Shown: piece after piece, positions 38,654-46,438 of the stretch
Position numbering within the stretch: position 1 is the stretch's first letter
Layout of the letters: every line of letters starts with the position of its first letter
From: Ruminococcus flavefaciens AE3010
GTDB lineage: Bacteria; Bacillota; Clostridia; Oscillospirales; Ruminococcaceae
Direction of reading: 5' to 3'
Assembly: GCF_000526795.1 (NCBI RefSeq)
Contig: NZ_JAGT01000001.1
Location: 2,392,001 to 2,456,000, forward strand
Length of the DNA stretch: 64,000 nucleotides
Translations under genes and position numbers: made by a program
The notes under the pieces: model-generated
Told to the model about the DNA's origin: nothing
Database searches by the model: none
Seen by the model: only the letters and a program-made list of their open reading frames with translations

Positions 38654-38722
38654 TTATAGGCTGCGTCTATAAATAATGATAATCCTTTCGTATTGGACAA
38701 AAGCCTATCAGTATGATATGAT
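38654..38722 (+). promoter_or_regulatory. Regulated promoter of the sulfonate-type ABC operon
   Basis: TTGGAC (38693-38698), 18-base spacer, TATGAT (38717-38722). The 45 bases ending at the -35 box (38654-38698) align without gaps to 46492-46536 upstream of the second ligase: TTATA...CTATAA, ATGATAATC and GTATTGGAC match. TTATAG-N7-CTATAA is an inverted repeat of LysR type. Confidence 0.75.
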
Positions 38723-38756: not shown

Positions 38757-38810
38757 ATGAGAAATTACAGACATATCACCAATTCGGAGCGAATGCGATG
38801 CTGCATCTGA
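38757..38810 (+). CDS. Cysteine leader peptide 1 (17 residues)
   Basis: A short frame coding MRNYRHITNSERMRCCI, with AAGGAGTG 9 bases before its ATG. Two Cys codons stand just before the stop. Its end (RCCI) resembles that of the second leader (RCCVIS). The mRNA around it can form nested stems: ATTCGGA (38782-38788) with TCCGAAT (38815-38821), and TATCACC (38774-38780) with GGTGATA (38846-38852), which is the ribosome site of the next gene. A ribosome paused at the Cys codons would open the inner stem. Function as a leader is inferred. Confidence 0.75.
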   Translation: MRNYRHITNSERMRCCI

Positions 38811-38855: not shown

Positions 38856-40064
38856 ATGAATAACAAGGCTAAATTTATTTCTATACTGGCAGCGGTTTCG
38901 CTGCTCACAGGCTGCGGAGCTTTAAACAACAGCTCACAGGATCCGGAATCAAACACAGAGGCTAAGACAGCAGTTCAGGCAGGAGCTTCTGCTCCCACAG
39001 AGGAAAAGGACTGTTGTAAGGACGGAGAAAAGGACTGCTGCAAGGACGGCGTGGCTGACTGCTGCGGCGACAGTGCAGAGGCAGTTCTCGGCAAGCCAGA
39101 AAAGACCGACATCAACATCGGCTACCTGAACTCTACAGCACATCTCCTCGCATTCGTTGCTCAGGAGGAGGGCTACTTCAAGGAAGAGGGACTTAAAGTC
39201 ACACTCACACAGTTCTCCAGCGCGGCTGAGCTGGTAAACGGACTTGAATCCGACAAGCTTGACGTTGCATTCATTGGTTCGGTACCAACACTTACTTTCC
39301 AGAGTCAGGGACATGACGTTTCAATATTCGGCGGAGCAATGACAAACGGTCACGGCTACGTTATCAAATCCGAATTCGCAGACAAGGACGAGCTTGGTGT
39401 TGAAGTATTAAAGGGCAGGAACGTTGCTTCCGTAAAGAACAGCGTTCAGGACGCAGAGCTCCAGATACTTCTGAAGAATGCCCACATCGAAATAGGCGAG
39501 GGCGCTGACAAGGTGAACATCGTTTACTTCGACAGCCAGAAGGACGCTTATGCAGCACTTCTCAACAGCTCTATCGACGCAGCTTCCGTATATTCGCCCT
39601 ACGCTTCGCTTGCAAAGTCTCAGGGCTACAAGGTAGTTTACTACTGCGCACACGAAAAGGCTCTTGAAAATCAGCCTTGCTGCCGTCAGGTAGCCAAGAC
39701 ATCAGCTCTCAATGACAGCCCCAATACATTCACAGCTGTTGAGAGAGCATTCATAAAAGCTTATCACTTCACACAGTCCGACCATGACAAGACCATCAAG
39801 GACGTTAAGAAGTACATCGACATTGACGAGGAGTTCATAGACACAGAGGTTTACGGCGGATACAGCGTATCAAGCCCCGATCCTGACAAGCAGGGTACTC
39901 TCACTCTTAAAGATACTATCATAGAACTTGGATATACAAACGATTACGACATCGAGCCATACTACAACACAGACATCTACAAAAAGGCTCTTGACAGTAT
40001 CTTGGCTGAGAACTCCGATGATATCTACAAATCATTAGAGGAGCATTTCAATGACTACGAATAA
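38856..40064 (+). CDS. ABC transporter substrate-binding lipoprotein, sulfonate/NitT/TauT type, Cys-rich linker
   Basis: A 402-residue periplasmic-type binding protein of the SsuA/TauA/NMT1 fold. The lipobox is SLLTGC. The mature domain starts INIGYLNSTAHLLAFVAQEEGYFKEEGLKV and has the ELVNGLESDKLDVAFIGSVPTL segment typical of the family. Between lipobox and domain lies a linker with three CC pairs (KDCCKDGEKDCCKDGVADCC), and another CC is in NQPCCRQVAK. Such Cys use is strange in a gene expected to respond to sulfur shortage. The ligand may be a sulfonate, another sulfur compound or a metal complex. Start ATG follows GAAAGGTGA. It overlaps the ATPase gene by 14 bases. Confidence 0.85.
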   Translation: MNNKAKFISILAAVSLLTGCGALNNSSQDPESNTEAKTAVQAGASAPTEEKDCCKDGEKDCCKDGVADCCGDSAEAVLGKPEKTDINIGYLNSTAHLLAFVAQEEGYFKEEGLKVTLTQFSSAAELVNGLESDKLDVAFIGSVPTLTFQSQGHDVSIFGGAMTNGHGYVIKSEFADKDELGVEVLKGRNVASVKNSVQDAELQILLKNAHIEIGEGADKVNIVYFDSQKDAYAALLNSSIDAASVYSPYASLAKSQGYKVVYYCAHEKALENQPCCRQVAKTSALNDSPNTFTAVERAFIKAYHFTQSDHDKTIKDVKKYIDIDEEFIDTEVYGGYSVSSPDPDKQGTLTLKDTIIELGYTNDYDIEPYYNTDIYKKALDSILAENSDDIYKSLEEHFNDYE

Positions 40065-40869
40065 GATAGAAATAAAAGACCTTACCGTAAATTACATAGA
40101 AAACAAGCGCAGCTTCAACGCACTCCACGACGTTTCATTCGGAGTTGCCGACGGCGAGTTCGTAAGCGTTATCGGTGCAAGCGGCTGCGGCAAATCAACT
40201 CTGCTCAGTGTGCTGGAGGGGCTCTATGCCCCTGCCGGCGGCACAGTACAGATAGACGGCAAGGAGCTTCACGGCACAGGTACAGAGCGCGGAGTCGTTT
40301 TCCAGCACTATTCGCTGTTCCCGTGGATGACCACAAGAAAGAACATCGAGTTCGGCATAAAGCAGTCCAGACACGATGTAAAGCGCAGTGAACGCGCCAA
40401 GATAGCAGACGAATTCCTCACAAAGGTAGGACTTACAGGCTTCGGCAATAAGTTCCCCTCACAGCTCTCGGGCGGTATGCAGCAGAGAGCAGCTATTGCA
40501 AGAGCTCTTGCAATGGATACCGAGATACTTCTCATGGACGAACCGTTCAGCGCTATCGACGCCAAGAACCGCGTTATATTGCAGGAGCTTCTCCTTAAAC
40601 TCTGGGAGGGCGACGGCTCAGAGCCCCGCAAGACTGTTGTATTCGTTACTCACGATATCGACGAGGCTATACTTCTTTCCGATAAGATAGTAGTTCTCAC
40701 AGCTCACCCCGGTACAGTAAACGAAGTGGTAAAGGTACCCTTCGACCGTCCACGCAGACGTGAGGATTTGGTCAAGACCGATGAGTACGGCAAGTTCAGA
40801 AACAGACTGCTCTCACTTCTTTACAATGACATTGCCGAACGCATCGGCGGAGATGAGGTGGTACTATGA
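40051..40869 (+). CDS. ABC transporter ATP-binding protein, SsuB/TauB type
   Basis: The ATPase of the importer (272 aa). Walker A is GASGCGKST, the Q-loop is VVFQHYSLFPWMT, the signature LSGGMQQRAAIARAL, Walker B ILLMDEPFSAID, and the H-loop VFVTHDIDEAI. FPWMT after the Q-loop is typical for nitrate/sulfonate/taurine ATPases. The gene starts inside the end of the binding-protein gene with GAGGAG upstream and overlaps the permease gene by ATGA, so all three are coupled. Confidence 0.93.
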   Translation: MTTNKIEIKDLTVNYIENKRSFNALHDVSFGVADGEFVSVIGASGCGKSTLLSVLEGLYAPAGGTVQIDGKELHGTGTERGVVFQHYSLFPWMTTRKNIEFGIKQSRHDVKRSERAKIADEFLTKVGLTGFGNKFPSQLSGGMQQRAAIARALAMDTEILLMDEPFSAIDAKNRVILQELLLKLWEGDGSEPRKTVVFVTHDIDEAILLSDKIVVLTAHPGTVNEVVKVPFDRPRRREDLVKTDEYGKFRNRLLSLLYNDIAERIGGDEVVL

Positions 40870-41786
40870 CGCTTAAAAAACGCTATCTCCGTATCACACA
40901 CCTGCTGTTCATAGCACTTCTGCTTATACAGCTTCTCCCCGACAAGTCCACAAAGGAAGTTTTCACAGGCTCACTTATAGCCTTTGCAGTGGGACTTGAA
41001 GTCATCGTGCTTGCAGCCTCCTCATTCATCAAAAAAGAGGAAAGCCTGTCACTTCTCCTTGATATCACGGGCTTTGTGTTCGTACTTCTGGGAGTATGGT
41101 CACTGGCTACTGCAAAGTACAATATACTCAACGACCTGCTTTTCCCTGCACCCGGCAAGGTGATACACCAGTTCACCGAGGACAGATCGGCTATATTCAC
41201 CAATATAGTAAGTTCCCTCGGCACAACGATCAAGGGCTTCCTTATCGCGGCTGCCGTTGCAATACCTCTGGGACTTTTCATCGGCTGGAGCGCAAGAGTA
41301 GGCGGAGCTGCCACATACATCACAAAGTTTTTCAGCTCAATTCCGCCTATAGTTTACATACCCTACGGTATCGCACTTCTCCCCACATTCAAGTCCGTAT
41401 CCGTATTCGTTATCTTCCTTGCAACATTCTGGCCTGTATTCGCAGGTACAATGAGCGGTGTTCTCGGAGTTGACAAGAGAATAATCGACTCGGCAAAGGT
41501 GCTCAACGTAAGCAAGCCCGAAATGCTGTTCAGAGTTATTCTTCCCGCTTCCCTGCAGCAGATATTCCTTGGCTGCAATCAGGGTCTGAGCGTGTCCTTC
41601 ATACTTCTCACATCGGCTGAGATGATAGGCGCACGCGACGGAATGGGCTATTATGTGAAGTACTACTCCGACTTCGGAGACTACACCAGAACTATCACAG
41701 GACTTCTCGTTATCGGTTTTGTTGTAATTGCAGTTACATTCCTGTTCAACAAGCTTCAGAATCGACTGCTTCGCTGGAAACACTGA
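40866..41786 (+). CDS. ABC transporter permease, SsuC/TauC type
   Basis: Membrane subunit (306 aa). The first 90 residues add about three helices that most SsuC proteins lack, then follows a BPD-type permease domain with the EAA loop (LNVSKPEMLFRVILPASLQQIFLG) that docks the ATPase. The GAxDGMGYYV segment after it is common in TauC/SsuC. Last gene of the transporter operon; a terminator follows at once. Confidence 0.9.
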   Translation: MTLKKRYLRITHLLFIALLLIQLLPDKSTKEVFTGSLIAFAVGLEVIVLAASSFIKKEESLSLLLDITGFVFVLLGVWSLATAKYNILNDLLFPAPGKVIHQFTEDRSAIFTNIVSSLGTTIKGFLIAAAVAIPLGLFIGWSARVGGAATYITKFFSSIPPIVYIPYGIALLPTFKSVSVFVIFLATFWPVFAGTMSGVLGVDKRIIDSAKVLNVSKPEMLFRVILPASLQQIFLGCNQGLSVSFILLTSAEMIGARDGMGYYVKYYSDFGDYTRTITGLLVIGFVVIAVTFLFNKLQNRLLRWKH

Positions 41787-41789
41787 AAT

Positions 41790-41822
41790 ATGCCAAAGGA
41801 CTTTTAGTTCTTTGGCTTTTTT
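41790..41822 (+). terminator. Intrinsic terminator of the ABC operon
   Basis: GCCAAAGgac...gttCTTTGGC followed by TTTTTTG, directly after the permease stop. Confidence 0.88.
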
Positions 41823-41834
41823 GCTGCGTAAGGC

Positions 41835-41930
41835 GCGGACTGCCAAAGGCAGCCCCTACACATAGTTCTTAGCTCTTAGTTCTCATACTAATGGCTAACG
41901 GCGCGGGACGTCGAGGACGCCGTCCCCTAC
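41835..41930. repeat. Two reverse GTAG palindromes around mixed heptamers
   Basis: Reverse palindromes at 41835-41859 (arms GGACTGCC / GGCAGCCCCTAC) and 41905-41930 (GGGACGTCG.../CGTCCCCTAC). Between them are CTTAGTT- and CTAATGG-type heptamers (41862-41900). Confidence 0.8.
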
Positions 41931-42003
41931 AATACATAATCTACAAAGACTATAAGAATAATAGGATAATTCTATAACTATCGCCGAATATAGCCCGAAC
42001 CTA

Positions 42004-42032
42004 TTGACAATCATTGGGTTATATGCTATAAT
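42004..42032 (+). promoter_or_regulatory. Promoter of the methyltransferase-mccB-mccA operon
   Basis: TTGACA (42004-42009), 17-base spacer, TATAAT (42027-42032): consensus. It leaves a 220-base leader with the attenuator. Confidence 0.88.
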
Positions 42033-42083
42033 TCATATAGTTCCGATAGGAATATAGAGTATTTATGAAAAGGAGTGCTGGAC

Positions 42084-42188
42084 ATGAGAACTAATATGAT
42101 GTGTTGTATGCAGTGTTGTTGTATGAGCTTATCAACCGATATCCGTATTCTGCATACTTATGCTCAGCGATGTTGCGTCATCTCCTGA
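42084..42188 (+). CDS. Cysteine-rich leader peptide 2 (34 residues)
   Basis: A short frame with AAGGAGTG 7 bases before its ATG. It starts MRTNMMCCMQCCCMS, so five of its first 13 residues are Cys (codons at 42102-42107 and 42114-42122), and it ends AQRCCVIS. Seven Cys in 34 residues, clustered where the RNA must sense the ribosome, mark it as a regulatory leader rather than a working protein. It reads into an intrinsic terminator 21 bases after its stop. Confidence 0.85.
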   Translation: MRTNMMCCMQCCCMSLSTDIRILHTYAQRCCVIS

Positions 42189-42244
42189 CTTTAAGCGAGT
42201 AAATTGTTATGCGCAGAATGCGAATGTCATTCTGCGCATTTTTT
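42107..42244 (+). promoter_or_regulatory. Transcription attenuator sensing cysteine (1:2, 2:3, 3:4 stems)
   Basis: Segment 1 (42106-42113, GTATGCAG, between the Cys clusters) pairs perfectly with segment 2 (42150-42157, CTGCATAC). Segment 2 (42144-42153, CGTATTCTGC) pairs over 10 bases, one of them G-U, with segment 3 (42213-42222, GCAGAATGCG). Segments 3 and 4 (42209-42220 and 42228-42239, ATGCGCAGAATG / CATTCTGCGCAT) form a perfect terminator with T6. A ribosome held at Cys codons would cover segment 1, free 2 to bind 3, and let transcription pass. Confidence 0.85.
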
Positions 42245-42261
42245 GTTATGGAGAGGTCACT

Positions 42262-43158
42262 ATGGTAAATGAAAGAGAAAGCGTAACCGCTAAGATATGC
42301 GCATTTGTGAGAGCATGGCACTCAAACAGGTCGCGCCAGAAGATATACGACGATTACCTTGCCTACGATATGCTTGGCAAGGAGGAATACGACAGCATAT
42401 ACGAGCTAATCAGCAGCGGACTTGACGGTTCGCAGATGTTCTCCCGCGAGGACACCGAGCAGATAATCAGCGAATACTTCGCTCCCATACCGCTGTCGAG
42501 GATACACTTCAACGAGAGCAGGCTTGCGGACTTCGCAAAGGAAAACGGAAAGGTCCAGTACGTCATATGCGGCGCAGGCTCGGACACATTTGCATTCCGC
42601 AACGACAACGAGGATATCGAGGTATTTGAAATAGACCACCCCGACACTCAGCGCTACAAGCTTGAAAAAATACGGGAGCTTGAATGGAATATCCGCTCAA
42701 ACGTACACTATGTACCCGTTGATTTCGAGAAAGAGCGAATGTGCGGCAAGCTTCTTGAAGCAGGCTTTGACCCGTCGAAAAAGACATTTTTCAGCATACT
42801 GGGAGTAACCTACTACCTGACGCTGGACGTGTTCACGGATACCCTCAGTCAAATGGCTGAGCTCTCTGCACTGGGAAGCGCTGTGGTGTTCGATTATCCC
42901 ATTAAAACGGGGGAATTTCCACGCAGAGTTGAAAGACTTGAGCTTATGACGGAAGCTCTCGGAGAGGTCATGCGGGGCGGCTACGATTACAGTGAGGTCT
43001 CCCGTGCACTGTACTCACTGGGCTTCCAGATAGACACATATATGCCCCCCGAAAAGGTACAGAAGGAGTACTTCGACGGACGTCAGGACGACCTGAAAGC
43101 ATTTGAAAACGTGAGCCTGATATCGGCTGCCTACACCGCAGGCTATGACTATAAATAG
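42262..43158 (+). CDS. Class I SAM-dependent methyltransferase, LCM family
   Basis: A 298-residue methyltransferase of the leucine-carboxyl-methyltransferase (PPM1/TIGR00027-like) family. The SAM site is VQYVICGAGSDTFAFRN, and the FEIDHPDTQRYKLEKI segment is typical. The natural substrate is unknown. It is first in a unit with cystathionine-type PLP enzymes, like the methyltransferase yrrT placed before mccA-mccB in Bacillus subtilis, so it may supply S-adenosylhomocysteine to the methionine-to-cysteine route (inferred). The ATG at 42262 follows GGAGAGGTCACT; the longer frame from 42160 crosses the terminator. Transcription is controlled by the attenuator just upstream. Confidence 0.85.
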   Translation: MVNERESVTAKICAFVRAWHSNRSRQKIYDDYLAYDMLGKEEYDSIYELISSGLDGSQMFSREDTEQIISEYFAPIPLSRIHFNESRLADFAKENGKVQYVICGAGSDTFAFRNDNEDIEVFEIDHPDTQRYKLEKIRELEWNIRSNVHYVPVDFEKERMCGKLLEAGFDPSKKTFFSILGVTYYLTLDVFTDTLSQMAELSALGSAVVFDYPIKTGEFPRRVERLELMTEALGEVMRGGYDYSEVSRALYSLGFQIDTYMPPEKVQKEYFDGRQDDLKAFENVSLISAAYTAGYDYK

Positions 43159-43200
43159 TTGAGAGTTTGTTATAGACAGACGGCAATGATATTTAAATAA

Positions 43201-43253
43201 GTCCGCAAAGCGGACACATAAACTCTCAATTCTCAACTCTAAACTCTCAACTC
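43201..43253 (-). repeat. GTCCGC hairpin with five-unit heptamer array
   Basis: GTCCGC-aaa-GCGGAC (43201-43215), then exactly five reversed heptamers TAAACTC/TCAATTC/TCAACTC (43219-43253). On the other side is ATTTAAATAA, the same spacer as near 9960. Confidence 0.8.
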
Positions 43254-43273
43254 AATTAAAAAGGAGAATTATT

Positions 43274-44434
43274 ATGAGTAACTATAAAAATACAGAAACC
43301 ACACTTATCCACGGAGGTATCTCCATTGACGAGCGCACAGGCGCAGTAAATGTGCCTATATATCAGACCTCCACTTACAAGCAGGACGGTCTCGGAAAAA
43401 TGCGCGGCTATGAGTACTCACGCACAGGCAACCCCACCCGTGAGGCTCTCGAAGCTCTCATCAGAGATTTAGAGGGCGGCTATGCAGGCTTTGCTTTCGG
43501 CTCGGGAATGGCTGCACTCACAGCAGTTCTCAGCCTGCTCCACAGCGGCGACAGAGTGCTTATTTCCAGCAATGTTTACGGCGGAACATTCCGTCTGCTG
43601 AGCAAGGTCTTCGACCACTTTGACTTCACCTACACCATTGCCGATACCGAGCACCCCGACGTTTACGAGAGCCAGATAACCGACGATGTAAAGGCAGTCA
43701 TCATCGAGAGCCCTGCTAATCCCCTTATGACCATTACCGATATCAGGGCGATCGCAGAGATATCCCACAGACACGGACTTCTCGTTATCGTGGACAACAC
43801 ATTCATGACGCCATATCTCCAGAAGCCCCTTGAACTGGGCGCAGATATAGTCGTACACAGCGCTACAAAGTATCTCGGCGGTCACAGCGACGTTGTATCG
43901 GGACTTGCAGTGGTAAATACTCCCGAGCTTGCCGAGAAGATCGCTTTCATTCAGAACTCCACAGGCGGAGTTCTCGGACCATTCGATTCATTCCTGCTTA
44001 TCCGCGGCATAAAGACTCTTGCAGTCCGCATGGACAGACACGTTGAGAATGCAGAGACAGTGGCAAAGCTCCTCGTGAACCACAAGGCCGTGAAGAACGT
44101 CTACTACCCCGGACTTGAAAGCGACAAGGGCTATGAGATCAACAAAAAGCAGGCCAAGAACGGCGGTGCGATGATCTCCTTTGAGCTCAATGAGAACTAC
44201 GACATAAACACTTTCTTCGAGAGCCTTGAGCTTATATCCCTCGCTGAGAGTCTTGGCGGCGTGGAGTCCCTTGTATGCCACCCCTCCACAATGACTCACG
44301 CTTCCATTCCTGCTGATATCCGCAAGAAAGTGGGCATCACAGACGGACTTATCCGACTTTCCGTTGGTATCGAGAATATTGAGGATATTATTGCGGATAT
44401 TGAACAGGCTATTGCAAAATCCGAGAGAAAGTGA
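43274..44434 (+). CDS. mccB: Cystathionine gamma-lyase / gamma-synthase family enzyme
   Basis: A PLP enzyme (386 aa) of the Cys/Met metabolism family. The N-terminus has TTLIHGG and the YSRTGNPTREALE segment, the phosphate-binding stretch FGSGMAALTAVL, and the PLP Lys in VHSATKYLGGHSDV. With the next gene, a cystathionine beta-synthase or cysteine synthase homologue, it fits reverse transsulfuration: homocysteine plus O-acetylserine to cystathionine, then to cysteine. The family also includes MetB, so the direction is inferred from the pairing and from cysteine-type control. AAAAAGGAG lies before the ATG. Confidence 0.88.
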   Translation: MSNYKNTETTLIHGGISIDERTGAVNVPIYQTSTYKQDGLGKMRGYEYSRTGNPTREALEALIRDLEGGYAGFAFGSGMAALTAVLSLLHSGDRVLISSNVYGGTFRLLSKVFDHFDFTYTIADTEHPDVYESQITDDVKAVIIESPANPLMTITDIRAIAEISHRHGLLVIVDNTFMTPYLQKPLELGADIVVHSATKYLGGHSDVVSGLAVVNTPELAEKIAFIQNSTGGVLGPFDSFLLIRGIKTLAVRMDRHVENAETVAKLLVNHKAVKNVYYPGLESDKGYEINKKQAKNGGAMISFELNENYDINTFFESLELISLAESLGGVESLVCHPSTMTHASIPADIRKKVGITDGLIRLSVGIENIEDIIADIEQAIAKSERK

Positions 44435-44444
44435 GATAATAGAT

Positions 44445-45356
44445 ATGAGATACTATGATTCTATGCAGTCCCTCATCGGCAATACTCCCCTTGTGAGACT
44501 GGGAAATATAGTAAAGGCGGAGGGCGTGAACGTTTTCGCCAAGCTGGAGCTCTACAATCCCTCGGGCAGTGTAAAGGACCGCACAGGTCTGTACATGATA
44601 AACGACGCCGAGAAAAAGGGGCTTCTCAAAAAGGGCGGCACTATCGTTGAAGCCACCGCAGGCAATACGGGTCTCGGCATAGCCTTTGCGGCTCTGAACC
44701 GCGGCTACAAAATAATATTTGTAGTTCCCACAAAGTTCTCCGCCGAAAAGCAGTCTCTGCTCCGCGCTCTGGGCGCCGAGGTAGTAAACACTCCCCGTGA
44801 GCTTGGTATGCTTGGTGCAGTCGCAAAGGCTGAGGAGATAAAGGCGCAGATACCTGATTCCATATCGCTGGAGCAGTTTAAAAACCAAAGCAATCCCCTT
44901 GCTCATTATGAGACTACAGGTCGTGAGATATATGAAGATCTCGACGGTCACATCGACTACGTTGTGGCAGGGGCAGGCAGCGGCGGCACTTACACGGGAA
45001 TACTCCGCTATATCAAGGAGCGCGTACCCAATGCAAAGGGCATACTTGCAGACCCTGTGGGCTCTACTATGGGCGGCGGTGAACACGCCGACTACAACAT
45101 TGAGGGCATCGGCAATGACTTCATCGCAGATACCATGGATATGTCCCTTGTGGACGGAGTTATCAAAATGAACGATGAAGAAGCTTTCGGCACAGCAAGG
45201 CTGCTTGCCAAGACCGAGGGCATCATCGCAGGCTCGTCCTCGGGAGCAGCTATGGCGGCAGTCCTCAAGCTCATAGAAAGCGGTGCAAAGGGCAATATCG
45301 TAACGGTATTCCCCGACCGCGGCGACCGCTATTTCAGCACAGGACTCTTTGATTAG
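44445..45356 (+). CDS. mccA: Cysteine synthase / cystathionine beta-synthase family enzyme
   Basis: A fold type II PLP enzyme (303 aa). The N-terminus has the SLIGNTPLVRLGN start, PLP Lys in NPSGSVKDRTGLYMI, the TSGNTG-like EATAGNTGLGIAF, and the GAGSGGTYTGILRY phosphate loop. It lacks CBS domains. It lies 10 bases after mccB, which together with the methyltransferase mirrors the mcc operon. It could use sulfide (CysK) or homocysteine (MccA). The ATG at 44445 has a GAGAG stretch upstream, not a strong ribosome site. Confidence 0.88.
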   Translation: MRYYDSMQSLIGNTPLVRLGNIVKAEGVNVFAKLELYNPSGSVKDRTGLYMINDAEKKGLLKKGGTIVEATAGNTGLGIAFAALNRGYKIIFVVPTKFSAEKQSLLRALGAEVVNTPRELGMLGAVAKAEEIKAQIPDSISLEQFKNQSNPLAHYETTGREIYEDLDGHIDYVVAGAGSGGTYTGILRYIKERVPNAKGILADPVGSTMGGGEHADYNIEGIGNDFIADTMDMSLVDGVIKMNDEEAFGTARLLAKTEGIIAGSSSGAAMAAVLKLIESGAKGNIVTVFPDRGDRYFSTGLFD

Positions 45357-45526: not shown

Positions 45527-46438
45527 ATGACTTTACAGCAGCTTAAATATATACTTGCAATATCTTCAACAGGCTCAATGAACAAGGCTGCGGAGCAGCT
45601 TTACGTTTCTCAGCCCTCCCTCACCTCATCGGTGCAGGAGCTCGAAAAGGAGATAGGCATAAAGATATTCAACCGCAGCGGACGCGGCGTCACTCTCACC
45701 AATGACGGAGCTGAGTTCGTTCAGTACGCCCGTCAGGTAGTCGGACAGTTCGACGTTCTCGCTGAAAAGTACATAAGCAAGGGCAGCGTAAAGAAGAAGT
45801 TCGGCGTGTCCACTCAGCACTATTCCTTTGCGGTAAAGGCATTCGTGGAAATGGTCAAGGAGTTCGATACTGCGGAGTACGAGTTTGCAGTCCGCGAGAC
45901 CAAGACCGCCGAGGTCATCAGCGACGTTGCGACTATGAGGAGCGAGATAGGCATCATCTACCTAAACGACTTCAACCGCAAGTCCATAACCAAGCTGCTC
46001 CACGCCAACGGTCTGGAGTTCCACACCCTGACAAAGTGCAGTCCTTTCGTTTACCTCTGGAAAGGACACCCTCTTGCAAAAGAGAAGAAGATAACCTTTG
46101 AGCAGCTTGCCGACTATCCCTGCCTCTCCTTTGAGCAGGGCGACAACAGCACGTTCTATCTGGCTGAGGAGCTCCTCAGCACAGCCGACTATCAGCGCAC
46201 TATCAAGGCCAACGACCGTGCAACTATGCTGAATCTGATGATAGGTCTAAACGGCTATACACTGTGCTCGGGTATCATCTGTGAGGAGCTCAACGGCGAT
46301 GATTATATTGCCGTGCCCTTTGAGGACGAGTCCGACGAGGTAATGGAAATAGGCTATATCACGCTGAAAAATGTCATTCTCAGCGGAATGGCGGAAATAT
46401 ATATCCGCGAGATAAAGGCGTATCTTGGCATAAACTGA
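45527..46438 (+). CDS. LysR family transcriptional regulator
   Basis: A 303-residue LysR-type regulator. The HTH is residues 1-60 (MTLQQLKYILAISSTGSMNKAAEQLYVSQPSLTSSVQELEKEIG). The C-terminal ligand domain is type 2 periplasmic-binding-like. In B. subtilis, LysR proteins CysL and YtlI control sulfur assimilation; its place between mccA and the ligase suggests a similar role (inferred). The inverted repeats upstream of 38693 and 46531 are candidate sites. CGGAGG lies 8 bases before the ATG. Confidence 0.9.
   Translation: MTLQQLKYILAISSTGSMNKAAEQLYVSQPSLTSSVQELEKEIGIKIFNRSGRGVTLTNDGAEFVQYARQVVGQFDVLAEKYISKGSVKKKFGVSTQHYSFAVKAFVEMVKEFDTAEYEFAVRETKTAEVISDVATMRSEIGIIYLNDFNRKSITKLLHANGLEFHTLTKCSPFVYLWKGHPLAKEKKITFEQLADYPCLSFEQGDNSTFYLAEELLSTADYQRTIKANDRATMLNLMIGLNGYTLCSGIICEELNGDDYIAVPFEDESDEVMEIGYITLKNVILSGMAEIYIREIKAYLGIN

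Follow-up and report, generated by a model that had tools for sequence, protein, structure and literature searches.

How the expression of a group of putative sulfur amino acid genes is controlled in Ruminococcus flavefaciens AE3010 is the question raised by this locus, which lies in a 64,000-nucleotide stretch of DNA (termed here the window; all positions refer to it). In Firmicutes, the control of cysteine genes is best known from T-boxes, S-boxes or the Rrf2-family protein CymR, and ribosome-mediated transcription attenuation is the principle of the trp/his-type attenuators of Enterobacteria. The original prediction, made from the letters of the window, was that a cysteine-responsive peptide attenuator precedes an operon named methyltransferase-mccB-mccA. 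Our analysis leads to the same headline, as a conserved coding ORF with Cys runs, a covarying terminator and an exclusive antiterminator were found before the sulfur amino acid operon. It is very likely, judging from comparative sequence evidence, that the methyltransferase-mccB-mccA-like operon is controlled by a ribosome-mediated transcription attenuator sensing the supply of Cys-tRNA. A short Cys-rich peptide and the folding of the message would then probably decide, in these rumen bacteria, whether the downstream genes are read, and the leader codons together with the genes of the operon point to cysteine as the signal.

The leader and its operon

The genes downstream of the leader are as follows:

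42262..43158, + strand, LCM-family SAM-dependent methyltransferase, first gene of the operon (PF04072, E 2.6e-40; TIGR00027 above cut-off)
43274..44434, + strand, MccB-like Cys/Met metabolism PLP enzyme (PF01053, E 1.6e-150; best NCBIfam model PRK07671, 565 bits against a cut-off of 594)
44445..45356, + strand, CysK/MccA-like PLP enzyme (PF00291, E 1.1e-72; TIGR01136, 337 bits against a cut-off of 344)
45527..46438, + strand, LysR-family regulator (PF00126 and PF03466)

The predicted gene order is therefore seen at the locus, and the names mccB and mccA are kept only as 'like' because the scores of both PLP enzymes miss the NCBIfam cut-offs. The same applies to the SsuA-like protein of an ABC operon upstream of the mcc leader, which scores 108.5 bits against an NCBIfam cut-off of 163.5.

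The leader region itself contains the following elements:

42004..42032, + strand, sigma-70 promoter TTGACA-17-TATAAT with an extended -10 (12/12 match)
42070..42075, + strand, Shine-Dalgarno sequence AAGGAG of the leader
42084..42188, + strand, leader ORF of 34 codons (MRTNMMCCMQCCCMSLSTDIRILHTYAQRCCVIS), with Cys codons at 7, 8, 11-13, 30 and 31
42144..42153, + strand, segment 2, the 5' arm of the antiterminator, pairing with 42213-42222
42209..42244, + strand, intrinsic terminator made up of segment 3 (42209-42222), segment 4 (42228-42239) and a T run

Most of what had been claimed for these elements holds. The promoter is of consensus sequence, with TG before the -10 hexamer; the ribosome site is a good one and is conserved in the aligned leaders; and the frame, which opens with the ATG at 42084 and closes with the stop codon at 42186-42188, carries the CC, CCC and CC clusters described. 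The terminator stem is perfect over its 12 pairs (42209-42239) and is followed by the T run, and stem 2:3 has ten pairs in the window, one of them G-U. Stems 2:3 and 3:4 are mutually exclusive because both use segment 3.

Taken as a lone sequence, the mcc leader is only mildly special. Its folding energy in the window sequence alone gives a z of -1.79, with 10 of 200 shuffles equally stable. A scan for promoter-like sites, which does not give the rate of 12/12 matches, found two where shuffles gave 2.0, and the same scan found two terminator-like sites against 0.9 in shuffles. The leader stands above chance because it is conserved: it is present in 48 of 125 Ruminococcus genomes, the frame is kept in 43/43 aligned leaders and the Cys codons in 48/48, and both 3:4 and 2:3 covary. 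No Rfam covariance model (4227 families) matched positions 40000-45000 at E<=1, so that the region contains no T-box, S-box or other RNA that these models recognise.

Conservation of the leader and its stems

A first peptide search of 60 relatives returned 29 loci, 15 of which were judged from the peptide and the neighbouring genes to be true homologues, and the leader profile was built from these 15. It was with this profile, at E<=1e-5, that the 48 genus leaders were found, and the methyltransferase gene lies directly downstream in every one of them. The methyltransferase is present in 55 of the 125 genomes at E<=1e-15 and reaches at least 74% identity in 50 (two of these split between contigs). 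Among those 50, 48 have the leader, one (G075) has a divergent leader and one (G035), with just 147 nt visible upstream of the methyltransferase, has no leader there; this comparison leaves out four distant methyltransferase relatives (L107-L110) and a methyltransferase fragment in G078. The divergent G075 leader (L105; MRPVINIMCCCRCCAVPFQFLHPHTGSERC), which enters no stem count, ends in SERC, the reading frame closing at the last Cys position, and its end resembles that of the ssu leader described below.

Forty-three of the 48 leaders were aligned, the other five (L043, L050, L092, L095 and L097) having been missed by the 5'-repeat pattern. Differences in ORF length are multiples of three in all 43, as against only 21/43 for the post-stop spacer. 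Ahead of segment 2, every one of the 48 leaders carries three to six Cys codons, and a Cys run of at least three is found in 43, the longest run being shorter than three in five; codons 22-25 are variable. We conclude from the comparison of sequences that the leader ORF is under selection as a coding sequence that is rich in Cys codons before segment 2.

The two exclusive stems are also conserved. In the terminator, 8 of the 12 pairs are changed on both sides and 96.2% of cells are paired (43 leaders); none of 500 shuffles reaches its paired cells, double changes or covariation score, and 5/500 reach its number of pair types. For the antiterminator the figures are 6 of 10 pairs and 94.2% (43 leaders), with none of 500 shuffles as high on any measure, and slid registers are paired in 26-77% of cells. 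The +2 slid control has 12 double-changed cells against 9 in the true register, but these fall in 4 pairs against 6 and half as many cells are paired. As the aligned rows are related, these covariation counts are not independent events. Stem 2:3 keeps at least 8 of its 10 pairs, and finds its best partner in the tail, in 46/48 leaders, with the most divergent members among the poorest; the five leaders absent from the alignment have 10/10 pairs in 2:3 and 10-12/12 in 3:4, and a T run of at least four precedes the next gene in 48/48. At the level of sequence, these results show that compensatory change has maintained both the terminator and the antiterminator, which are mutually exclusive.

Stem 1:2 gave a different result. 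It had been proposed that segment 1, lying between the first two Cys clusters, forms the classic protector with segment 2. The stem forms 8 perfect base pairs in the window (42106-42113 with 42150-42157), and its exact form recurs in 9/43 leaders; pairing of the Cys region with segment 2 was no better than in codon shuffles, with 1/43 leaders at p<=0.05. A 1:2 protector as a conserved element is thus not supported, and the mechanism proposed below does not depend on it; such a stem is usual in ribosome-mediated attenuators but was not taken here as a defining feature. All three stems have the complementarity predicted for them in the window, covariation supports conservation of 3:4 and 2:3, and the search of related genomes that the original prediction had proposed as a check found the leader and covariation of the same two stems. 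Loss of the Cys codons or stems in homologues, which it had named as grounds for rejection, was not seen, since the Cys codons, 3:4 and 2:3 are conserved.

Some leaders carry additional features. L038, L039, L046, L096 and others have an extra small hairpin (such as ACAGCTTCGGCTGT) between the leader stop codon and the terminator, which is absent in the window, and in L053 (from G032) the 5' inverted repeat is doubled, with GTTCCGATAGGAATACAG and then TGCCTATAGGGATACAG ahead of the leader.

The profile was also run on 295 order, 391 class and 247 family genomes, samples that overlap and include the source genome and some congeners. Eight of the better matches outside the genus (L058-L061 and L228-L231) were inspected along with L232, and all were taken as chance matches, with no recognisable methyltransferase or mcc-like gene behind any. 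No credible homologue of the leader was found outside the genus among the sampled genomes. A search of named genomes with the leader pattern returned 37 stretches, of which 34 are from Ruminococcus and one each from a Clostridiales MAG, Lactococcus and Idiomarina. Among 29 loci of further mccB relatives in the order, outside the source genome, 19 were examined for a preceding Cys-Cys uORF (a set of 17 plus L149 and L155), and two such uORFs were seen, both more than 1,100 nt upstream; of the ten left out, nine were missed by the motif and L152 ends about 90 nt upstream. On present samples, the mcc leader appears confined to one genus.

The 15-nucleotide element and ribosome position

The 3' part of the leader ORF contains a second conserved element:

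42162..42176, + strand, near-invariant 15-mer GCTCAGCGATGTTGC spanning codons 27-31, which provides the 5' arm of hairpin P and can alternatively pair with the ribosome site of the leader; exact in 39/48 leaders
42186..42203, + strand, 3' arm of hairpin P, comprising the stop codon and the post-stop stretch; mean z -2.12 over 43 leaders

When the leader was scanned in 24-nt windows for partners of the 15-mer, the post-stop stretch (mean z about -2.2) and the region of the Shine-Dalgarno sequence and start codon (about -1.7) stood out; the Cys region was a weak third (z -1.0 to -1.3), and values elsewhere in the leader ran from -0.5 to +0.9. The post-stop arm is variable, and its 21 non-redundant versions give a mean z of -2.33 with 11/21 at p<=0.05. 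Pairing on the Shine-Dalgarno side gives a mean z of -1.87, also with 11/21 at p<=0.05, but here the rows are near-identical and the value is therefore largely one inherited complementarity counted many times. Hairpin P is only weakly predicted in the window itself (z -0.8). The RCC codons, whose Cys pair had been counted as the third Cys cluster, are present; given their place in the 15-mer and the outcome of the partner scan, they are better read as part of an element that pairs elsewhere.

These elements suggest the following course of events. With Cys-tRNA in short supply, the ribosome would stall in the first Cys cluster (codons 7-13), leaving segment 2 and the 15-mer free. The free 15-mer would fold onto the post-stop stretch to give hairpin P, which would shorten the loop between segments 2 and 3; the antiterminator 2:3 could then form and the operon be read. 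With Cys-tRNA plentiful, the ribosome would reach the RCC codons and the stop codon, where it would unwind hairpin P and adjoin segment 2, and the terminator 3:4 would form. In the absence of a ribosome the 15-mer could instead pair with the ribosome site of the leader, and this may hold down re-initiation.

We modelled folding for transcripts cut off directly behind segment 3, on the assumption that the ribosome covers the RNA from 18 nt upstream to 14 nt downstream of the A-site base. Over 43 leaders the mean probability of 2:3 was 0.76 for a ribosome at the first Cys codon of the cluster and 0.71 for one at its last; without a ribosome it was 0.53, and it was 0.50 with the ribosome at the stop codon and 0.30 with it at codon 30. 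A stall at the first Cys codon gave a higher 2:3 probability than no ribosome in 23/43 leaders and a lower one in 1, and a higher one than a ribosome at the stop codon in 26 and a lower one in 4. For the window itself the difference is small (0.96 with the stall, 0.89 when no ribosome is present and 0.65 at the stop codon). In the model, the effect of the stall is in the direction needed by a cysteine attenuator. As a ribosome at codon 30 lowers antitermination, the last Cys pair is unlike the first cluster in this model.

The last of these predictions bears on a different account of the 15-mer, in which the C-terminal [AS][QE]R..C end stalls the ribosome, as nascent peptide or through its CGA-UGY codon pair, and serves as the main sensor, the early Cys run being secondary. 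The conservation of AQRCC fits this account, as does the codon usage: Arg is CGA in 41/43 aligned rows, that is in all 41 having Arg, and the other two have Gln. So do the leaders before ssuA-like genes, which end in SERMRC and also use CGA, and the SERC end of the divergent G075 leader. Against this, the two rows without the 15-mer (L036 and L042) end in AQQYC, and third codon positions, which the peptide would not need, are equally fixed (Ala, for example, is GCT in 41/43); the RNA partners account for the 15-mer. The early Cys codons, moreover, are kept in every leader, and a ribosome at the C-terminal end is predicted to favour termination. We consider it unlikely that this end is the main sensor, and favour sensing by the first Cys cluster.

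Comparison of the proposed cysteine attenuator with known systems shows both likenesses and differences. The trp/his-type attenuators of Enterobacteria likewise combine a leader peptide rich in the regulated amino acid with an intrinsic terminator and an exclusive antiterminator; here the amino acid is cysteine, the host belongs to the Clostridia, no 1:2 protector is supported, and a hairpin spanning the stop codon sits within the antiterminator loop. By its description, the uORFC-8-2 motif before cysS in Rhodobacterales is similar in having a predicted Cys-codon uORF with an intrinsic terminator (PMC8632094), but it is found in Alphaproteobacteria and has tandem Cys codons at 14-15, whereas the runs here are at codons 7-13 and precede a methyltransferase-mccB-like operon. 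Cys-run leader peptides before cysteine genes are also found in Mycobacterium, Propionibacterium acnes and Bifidobacterium longum, with the runs near the stop codon and no conserved terminator reported (PMC1262725); the mycobacterial ones are described as leaderless, with the cysteine genes said to be under translation attenuation (PMC13236596). In contrast, the mcc leader has a Shine-Dalgarno sequence within a conserved 5' leader, an early Cys run and a terminator, and as far as those accounts go it does not fall in the mycobacterial poly-Cys class. The histidine leader peptides before hisZ/hisS in Bacilli are another regular Firmicutes leader peptide system replacing a T-box, and differ in concerning histidine, Bacilli and hisS paralogues (PMC2965389).

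Judged by title and abstract, none of the other open-access articles retrieved reports a cysteine leader in Clostridia, Firmicutes or Ruminococcus. Peptide-attenuator control is thus a known principle for which we found no report concerning cysteine in the Ruminococcus group. If Clostridia do use a peptide attenuator for cysteine, as the covariation suggests, the same logic must have originated in them too, or been recruited by them, and the nested hairpin would stand in place of the textbook protector. The 48 natural versions of the leader constitute ready-made variants.

The promoter and a second leader

The analysis also reveals a second leader family, on the neighbouring sulfur transport operon, and elements common to the two promoters:

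41978..41993, no strand assigned, CTAT-N8-ATAG box (CTATCGCCGAATATAG) 10 bp before the -35, candidate activator site conserved in mcc and ssu promoters
42040..42053, no strand assigned, nearly invariant inverted repeat GTTCCGATAGGAAT where the transcript is expected to start, either a DNA operator or a 5' hairpin
38757-38810, second leader peptide MRNYRHITNSERMRCCI, upstream of the ssuA-like gene

A near-consensus mcc promoter is matched at the same place in 47 of 49 relatives' loci, the other two being unmatched by the promoter pattern. With at most one mismatch, the box lies at the same 10-bp distance in 38 of these 47 promoters and in 19/23 distinct ssu promoters, the copy in the window being at 38667-38682; 2.7% of 3,000 random 60-mers contain such a box anywhere. 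The LysR protein encoded at 45527-46438 would be the natural candidate for binding this shared box. No pair of the inverted repeat is changed on both sides among the aligned leaders; since the repeat is nearly invariant, there is no evidence for an RNA hairpin there. CC-N-ATAGG repeats are sited differently at the two promoters, at +1 in mcc and between -35 and -10 in ssu.

These features raise the prospect that control is exerted at transcription initiation, through the LysR box and the operator-like repeat, with the leader merely trimming basal expression. The fixed spacing of the box at both promoters and the near-invariant repeat at +1 agree with this, and the genome encodes two Rrf2-family proteins above cut-off. 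However, both attenuator stems are under long selection, and the two layers are compatible; we regard it as quite improbable that initiation is the controlling step. It is very improbable that the ORF instead encodes a functional Cys-rich small protein (for metal binding, for example) with an incidental terminator: its Cys content and strict frame conservation would fit, but the middle of the peptide is free to vary in sequence and length, and segment 2, as part of the coding sequence, covaries with the terminator and antiterminator.

The second leader has the conserved form M..(Y)R.I.NSERMRC. Of 30 loci from relatives, 19 have it 34-68 nt before an SsuA-like ORF, three gave a match without one, and the remaining eight were dropped by a filter on the end of the pattern. 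The end of the leader is conserved at the DNA level (TCGGAGCGAATGCGATGT), and a degenerate pattern for it matches in 66/125 genus genomes, some of them by chance according to a reversed control. No terminator was seen behind this leader within the window. An anti-Shine-Dalgarno pairing (ATCACC with GGTGAT) seen in the window is not kept in the relatives compared and was dropped, and a hairpin test at the leader end gave a mean z of -1.07, with 8/29 at p<=0.05.

It is conceivable, although we would put it forward only tentatively, that two distinct leaders govern one Ruminococcus sulfur regulon. The mcc-like operon would be under the poly-Cys transcription attenuator and the ssuA-like operon under the SERMRC leader, behind which no terminator was seen; both leaders end in Arg-Cys on CGA. 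The 15-nt element of the mcc leader would in that case be a three-way switch that replaces the 1:2 protector, its three states being pairing with the ribosome site of the leader, the hairpin over the stop codon and burial under the ribosome.

A further observation concerns the SsuA-like lipoprotein itself: its N-terminal linker (DCCKDGEKDCCKDGVADCC; window positions 39012-39072) contains three Cys-Cys pairs. Cys-Cys pairs occur within the first 75 residues in 13/19 SsuA-like relatives, which is odd in a protein of a sulfur-scavenging operon.
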